A stretch of 64,000 nt of DNA from Halorubrum yunnanense. GTDB lineage: Archaea > Halobacteriota > Halobacteria > Halobacteriales > Haloferacaceae. A program made the translations under genes and the position numbers. Numbering within the stretch: position 1 is the first letter of the stretch; the number at the start of each line of letters is the position of its first letter. The notes under the pieces are model-generated. The model ran no database searches. It saw nothing but the letters and a program-made list of their open reading frames with translations, and was not told the DNA's origin. The stretch spans positions 1 through 64,000 of the forward strand of contig NZ_JAODIX010000007.1 of the NCBI RefSeq assembly GCF_026586675.1, written 5' to 3'. Below are positions 49,865 to 53,489 of the stretch, piece after piece.

Positions 49865-50332
<468 letters not shown>

Positions 50333-52401: not shown

Positions 52402-53489
52402 TCAGATCGCGTCGTAGTCCTCCCGGAACGTCTCCAGCGTCGCCGCGAGCACGCCGATGACGATGGGCCCGACGAACAGTCCAGTGAACCCGACCGAGTG
52501 AACTGCTTCGGGGTCAAGCCCCGAGGCACTCGCCTTGCTTATCTGTAGATCCCGCCGAAGACGCCGAGGAGGATCACCGCGGGGTTCAGGTGCGCCTGCT
52601 GGTCGATGACCAGCGGCCGGGCGTAGTTGTCCACCATCGCGATGACGAACACGCCGTACAGCGCGAGCAACGCCCCGGCCGTGGCCTGGTCGACGACGAC
52701 GAGGTACGCCGCGGCCGGCCCCCAGACGAAGAACGCCCCGATCAGCGGGAGCAGCGCGAGCACGGCCATGACGAACGTCCAGAAGACGACGTTCGGGATC
52801 CCGGCCGCCCAGAGGCCGACGCCGGCGATCAGCGCCTGCAGCAGCGCCACGATGATGTGGCCGATCACCACCCCTCGGGTCATCGCGTCGACGCGGTCGA
52901 CGAGGTCTGCGGTGACCGCCGAGGGGAGCGGGCTCGTCTCCCGGAGCCACCCCACGAACGCCGGCCCGTCGAGCAAGGCGTAGTAGACCAAAAAGAGGGC
53001 GAGCGAGAGCCCCACCGACGCGCGGATCGCGGTGCCGACGACCCCGCTCACTCCCCCGAACAGCGTGTTGACGAGGGTCTGTCCGGCCGTCGCCAGCACG
53101 TCGCCGACCTCGACGCGCTGTCCGGTGAGCGCCGCGATCTCCGCCTCTATCGCCGCGACGTCGATATCGGTGTTCCCCCGCGCGATCGCCGTGAGGTCCC
53201 GGACGAACACCCACGAGATGTACGCGAGCGGGAGGATGATGGCGACGATGGAGGCGACGATGAGCGAGACGCCGGAGAGCATCCGCCCGAGCCGACGCGA
53301 CATCGACTCTCGCACGCGGCCAGACAACGCCGCTCGGATCCCCCGCGAGAGTCGCACGTGGAGGGGGTAGAGGACGTACGCGAAGATCGCCGACGCGATG
53401 ACGTACTCGACGAACGGCAGGATGACGAACAGCGTTAGCAGCGCGACCGTGCCGATGAGGAGCAGGAGGAACGATTGGCCGCGATTCAT
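52402..53489 (-). pseudogene. AI-2E family transporter (PerM/YdiK-like), interrupted by a 50-nt palindromic insertion
   Basis: From ATG 53489 the frame encodes about 316 residues with the eight-helix layout of the AI-2E/UPF0118 family, ending ...VILLGVFGGIYR and a stop. The expected continuation, GFTGLFVGPIVIGVLAATLE to the end at 52402, is in another frame. Between the two lies a 50-nt block (52495-52544) with a stem-loop. Without it the frames join as in intact family members. The truncated protein lacks the last transmembrane segment and tail. Confidence 0.75.
52495..52544 (-). mobile_element. Short palindromic insertion (PATE/IS200-IS605 end-like)
   Basis: The 50-nt insert contains GCTTCGGGG-TCAA(G)-CCCCGAGGC, a 9-bp stem with one G-T wobble and a loop of about 5 nt. 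It brings an in-frame TAA directly after the GGIY codons of the host gene. Its length is congruent with 2 modulo 3, as the frame difference requires. The form resembles palindrome-associated elements moved by IS200/IS605 transposases in haloarchaea; assignment is by structure only. Confidence 0.55.

Follow-up and report, generated by a model that had tools for sequence, protein, structure and literature searches.

What has broken the AI-2E family transporter gene on the minus strand of this stretch of Halorubrum yunnanense DNA (64,000 nucleotides, here called the window), and in which steps did the break arise? The gene is identified by a match to PF01594 (E = 3.8e-29). The first-pass annotation had described a transporter which is normal up to GGIY and then meets a foreign block with an in-frame stop, after which GFTGLFVGPIVIG picks up in a different frame; translation bears out both statements. 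We suggest that the block is what is left of a full IS200/IS605 insertion of about 2 kb which afterwards lost its core, and we put the probability of this reading at roughly 77%. The features of the locus are as follows.

52545 to 53489, minus strand: 5′ part of the AI-2E family transporter gene, 315 codons (PF01594; the frame continues in 28 of 28 same-genus homologues)
52545 to 52549, minus strand: target pentanucleotide TCTAC beside the left end (motif also at the left ends of full elements and of single-hairpin copies)
52498 to 52544, minus strand: 47-nt block, probable terminal-only (single-hairpin) IS200/IS605 remnant (flanks abut in 28 of 28 relatives; left part as in the resident left ends on contigs C41 and C50)
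52539 to 52541, minus strand: in-frame stop within the block; the product ends in GGIYR and has 316 aa
52528 to 52544, minus strand: left-end spacer AGATAAGCAAGGCGAGT, identical to the left ends of the resident element
52505 to 52527, minus strand: hairpin GCCTCGGGG-CTTGA-CCCCGAAGC, 8 of 9 pairs; its core is the direct repeat common to the left and right ends of full elements
52498 to 52504, minus strand: right-end tail AGTTCAC, exactly as at the resident element's right ends (contigs C23 and C24)
52402 to 52497, minus strand: 3′ part of the transporter gene, out of frame, GFTGLFVGPIVIGVLAATLETFREDYDAI (translation; frame check in homologues)

We searched 34 same-genus genomes and found the homologous locus in 28. 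At all 28 loci the sequences on either side of the block are directly joined (gap exactly 0). The block was therefore inserted directly 3′ of TCTAC, and no target nucleotides were duplicated or lost. An insertion of 50 nt had been proposed; the insertion stands, but its length is corrected by these empty sites to 47 nt. That an insert of 2 modulo 3 accounts for the change of frame remains valid, since 47 is 2 modulo 3. In the homologues the frame is open through the site, with GGIY or GGVY, two residues and then GFTGLFVGP or GFVGLFVGP. This open frame measures 330–349 aa in 27 of the 28 loci. At the remaining one (L020, genome G031) 209 aa were recovered, and the gene there may have another, unrelated break further upstream or a problem with its start. 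No relative with the block in frame was found; none of the 28 has it at the transporter site.

The 9-bp stem-loop reported earlier exists as a hairpin but is not fully paired, as one C-A mismatch leaves 8 of 9 pairs around the loop CTTGA. When the block and its flanks are folded together as single-stranded DNA, the z-score is –2.15, and 5 of 200 shuffled sequences fold as well. The block is non-coding and too short for a transposase gene. Terminal inverted repeats and target duplication are both absent and there is a single near-palindrome; these are marks of IS200/IS605 ends. An Rfam scan of the window found a tRNA alone.

Kin of the block recur within the same genome. With up to 3 mismatches, the 21-nt hairpin core occurs 10 times (the transporter copy included) and a 29-nt core 5 times, whereas the reversed controls gave 0 in both searches; the recurrence is thus not due to chance. 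The view of the block as an inserted element implied that it should not be absent from all other sites, and this proved correct. On contigs C41 and C50 the hairpin forms the left end of a larger element, which agrees at every position with the transporter copy over the 42 nt that run from TCTAC into the hairpin. On contigs C23 and C24 it forms the right end of a larger element, with the tail AGTTCAC as in the block. Both outer halves of the block are those of a resident element, of which the genome contains two left and two right junctions. The interior of this element is absent from the draft assembly (116 contigs), as is expected when a repeat collapses in assembly. From the relatives described below we infer its transposase; the genome itself has four Y1_Tnp matches, which may be of RAYT or of IS200 type. 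The stem mismatch of the block, GAAGC for GAGGC, is found in neither resident end and so arose later or came from a variant. The window also contains a remnant of a TnpB gene (positions 49919–50332, minus strand; PF07282, a 137-aa frame which has lost its N-terminal part), followed by a different hairpin end, CGCGCTTTAGCGCG. This remnant was considered as the source of the block and dropped, as its end sequence differs.

Full elements are preserved in relatives. Seven were measured, six of 1434–1999 nt and one of 2938 nt, together with 14 of 16 single-hairpin loci (L062 and L063 were left out, as they have other tails and do not match the pattern). The full elements have TCTAC at the left (TCTAT in one case) and a hairpin near each end; GCCTCGGGGCTTGACCCCGAGG is present in both hairpins as a direct repeat. 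In the examples checked, a Y1 transposase TnpA (PF01797, E = 7.5e-39) and a TnpB with a PF07282 domain are encoded in opposite orientation. A separate kind of element, of about 350 nt, was seen at L044, L048, L051 and L055; it has a left and a right hairpin and the tail TACTTCAC and leaves no space for a transposase. Genome G030 contains two very similar two-hairpin elements of this size at different sites.

How a full element becomes a single hairpin can be followed at two other sites. At a Halorubrum-type site, genome G012 has a full element of 1959 nt, G019 a single-hairpin form of 48 nt and G003 nothing. The flanks of G012 and G019 are about 95% identical on both sides, and the short form of G019 has the same spacer and tail as the full element of G012. 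The empty site of G003 reads TTCTAT where TTCTAC stands in the occupied genomes. At a Natrinema site, with flanks 92–98% identical, N. hispanicum DSM 18328 has a full element of 2081 nt, N. hispanicum CDM_6 a form of 48 nt, and N. limicola is empty. The Halorubrum-type comparison covered 14 sites with the best 6 candidates per genome scored; the Natrinema comparison used 6 of 8 copies, since L126, L134 and L156 share flanks. We found two single-copy sites occupied in more than one genome, and each includes one genome with the full element. A site with a single hairpin in all three Natrinema genomes (L126) was excluded from this count because many partial copies of the sequence exist.

The trios in two genera indicate that in-place loss of the core can give rise to the short form. 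That full elements collapse there to the single-hairpin form is the simplest reading of these alignments. Alternatively, one TCTAC may have been hit twice independently, but the spacer and tail that the two forms have in common argue against this.

Some further details of these loci are recorded here as separate observations. The full element of N. hispanicum DSM 18328 (L374) has a damaged left hairpin from which stem bases are missing; the single-hairpin copy that its relative has there is intact. Length differences of 10–40 nt, at low identity, were seen in several genomes at the L069 site. In the flanks of L050 and L070, close to where a G019 contig of 300 kb ends, a motif of about 20 nt, ACCCCTCTATCGATGTGTTC, is repeated several times in both orientations; these repeats are perhaps binding sites of a replication origin.

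For the transporter we suggest the following course of events. An IS200/IS605 element resident in this genome, about 2 kb long and with divergent tnpA and tnpB, would have inserted 3′ of TCTAC, without target duplication, as is usual for elements of this family. Near-identical hairpins at its left and right ends would have formed a direct repeat. Deletion from one hairpin copy to the other, presumably repeat-mediated by slippage or single-strand annealing, could then have taken out the entire core, so that a single hairpin remained. With the spacer of the left end on one side and the tail of the right end on the other, the remainder would measure 47 nt, and as this is 2 modulo 3 the gene would stay broken. 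None of the relatives compared has a full element at the transporter site; that the transporter copy took the same path from full to single form we infer from the other sites. The first-pass annotation had spoken of a minute non-autonomous element. This describes the present state well; as to the origin, the two three-state sites make a full insertion followed by core deletion likelier.

The same annotation had called the insertion recent. This is supported by the empty sites in 28 of 28 relatives and by the lineage-specific substitutions 5′ of the insertion, which are 8 synonymous and 4 non-synonymous in the interrupted gene and 9 and 4 in its nearest relative, the sister lineage. By this comparison the transporter shows no sign of faster decay. 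The insertion would then be recent, or the truncated 316-aa product may still be under selection.

How widespread is the short form? In public genomes the exact single-hairpin pattern occurs in 113 copies on 112 stretches, with 62 distinct sequences. The 80 stretches listed are all archaeal by title and nearly all haloarchaeal by name; an exact 18-nt pattern had no match in viral contigs. One genome analysed here in detail, G043 (2.66 Mb, from another family), has 88 hairpins at up to 3 mismatches, and in 46 of 94 hairpins a target-like left side is combined with a tail-like right side. On its contig C1 (for example L241–L280) three types of target are seen, namely TCTAC, TGTAC and TTTAC/TTCAC. 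Single-hairpin copies outnumber recognisable complete elements in this genome. Left ends that belong to right ends were found for two full elements (L262 by the left-end pattern, L278 by the hairpin scan), and none was convincing for the others listed. At another locus, L142, an older single-hairpin copy, now decayed, has been separated from its TCTAC by a second one that inserted exactly at the junction; the target motif has been used twice and the two hairpins now lie in tandem.

The stems of G043 carry a signature. Classing as single-hairpin those copies whose right tail is not preceded by AAG or AGG (some of them without a clear target motif), the outer stem half is mismatched in 40 of 58 single-hairpin copies versus 5 of 26 right ends (Fisher p = 3.6e-5, with related copies treated as independent and the outcome depending on how copies are classed). 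For the inner stem half the figures are 21 of 58 and 14 of 26 (p = 0.16). Such an excess in the outer half is what the fusion of unlike left and right arms would leave. Among 392 genomes of the order, 4 contain a hybrid type with the left arm GCCTCGGGG and the right arm CCCCGGAGC (7 copies in G043, 2 in G055, 2 in G090 and 1 in G177), and G177 also has a full-type right end with a perfect arm matching the hybrid type. The hybrid copies differ in their left spacers. One identical hybrid copy is found at different sites in three families. An extra C shared by two G043 copies was tried as a test and dropped, since C-runs of other lengths exist elsewhere.

It is very improbable that the block is a sequencing or assembly error or a naturally variable region of the transporter. 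In a draft genome of 116 contigs local errors are possible; however, the block is an exact element with defined ends and its own target motif, and it has kin elsewhere in the genome. Moreover, 28 of 28 homologues lack it and are open in frame, and on these empty sites a natural variant was rejected. Next to no weight can be given to a classical MITE, that is, an element with terminal inverted repeats mobilised by a DDE transposase. The block is short and non-coding and contains a palindrome, as a MITE might, but it lacks terminal inverted repeats and target duplication. The gap of 0 at 28 of 28 empty sites contradicts a MITE, and we rejected it.

More serious, although we consider it unlikely, is the proposal that the 47-nt single-hairpin form is itself mobile: TnpA acting in trans would excise and insert the unit, which would have entered the transporter as such. 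One hairpin would suffice on this proposal, having a left cleavage site at the spacing of left ends and a right one at the spacing of right ends. Many copies are dispersed (the 113 exact ones with their 62 sequences), the hairpins of G043 with both sides (46 of 94) fit this proposal, and so do the hybrid type, shared 7/2/2/1 by 4 of 392 genomes, and its identical copy in three families. The many single-hairpin copies and few left ends in G043 suggest that short copies could also spread by themselves. Further, sister genomes look empty at the 14 Halorubrum-type sites where both flanks match closely, the trio excepted (among the matches listed). For the six strain-specific 52-bp copies of ISHwa23, mobilisation is thought possible in the account of these copies in PMC3119063. 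Against this, both shared single-copy sites include one genome with the full element, and the left spacers of the hybrid copies differ, unlike in a fresh burst from one founder. TnpA of the IS200/IS605 family binds the hairpins at both ends, according to the description in PMC6006769, and for bacterial REPs the treatment in PMC3116915 takes singlets for defunct remnants and sees the mobile unit in the doublet. Either the same fusion recurred again and again, or some short copies move. It is rather doubtful that some haloarchaeal fused-end remnants became mobile units of 47–49 nt for which one hairpin suffices, and that in genomes like G043 they represent an archaeal counterpart of REP sequences at its origin. 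For the transporter we prefer the full insertion followed by core deletion.

Compared with IS200/IS605 elements, to which the parent belongs, the block has the target motif 5′ of the left end, a subterminal hairpin and no target duplication; unlike them, it encodes no Y1 transposase and has one hairpin instead of two. With REP sequences and REPINs and their RAYT (TnpA-REP) it shares the short single hairpin, the many dispersed copies and the kinship to IS200-type ends. REPs are defined in the relevant section of PMC6006769 by GTAG or GTGG within 0–2 nt 5′ of the hairpin foot, whereas the foot of the block reads GAGT; the block also keeps the target motif and the right-end tail, and it is intragenic. 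The three-state sites offer material on how REP-like repeats could start.

The closest match are the palindrome-associated transposable elements (PATEs) of Haloquadratum walsbyi (Dyall-Smith et al. 2011, PMC3119063). In its description of the short copies, this source presents the terminal-only PATEs of 52 bp as core-deletion forms of HqIRS46 and ISHwa23, which arose when IS605-type elements lost what lies between their near-terminal palindromes. The block agrees with them, as there described, in its size of about 50 bp, its single near-terminal palindrome, its fused IS605-type ends and its lack of inverted repeats, target duplication and transposase. Their origin by deletion between near-terminal direct repeats is what we see at two other sites. 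Judged by its sequence, the block is a terminal-only PATE, a kind described in 2011, with core deletion seen at those other sites and not here. Among titles and abstracts, mostly from outside subscription journals, we recognised no other description of such forms in haloarchaea. Unlike the H. walsbyi PATEs as presented there, the block belongs to another genus and another element type, it interrupts a conserved gene of which 28 homologues have the empty site, and trios exist in two further genera. Our reading accounts for the broken transporter, and it implies that a transposon of about 2 kb can shrink to a frame-breaking scar of 47 nt which is easily missed in annotation. New with respect to 2011 are the wider census, the two three-state sites and the mismatched-stem signature; the three-state sites bear on a question that the 2011 discussion of the short copies leaves open, namely their origin.
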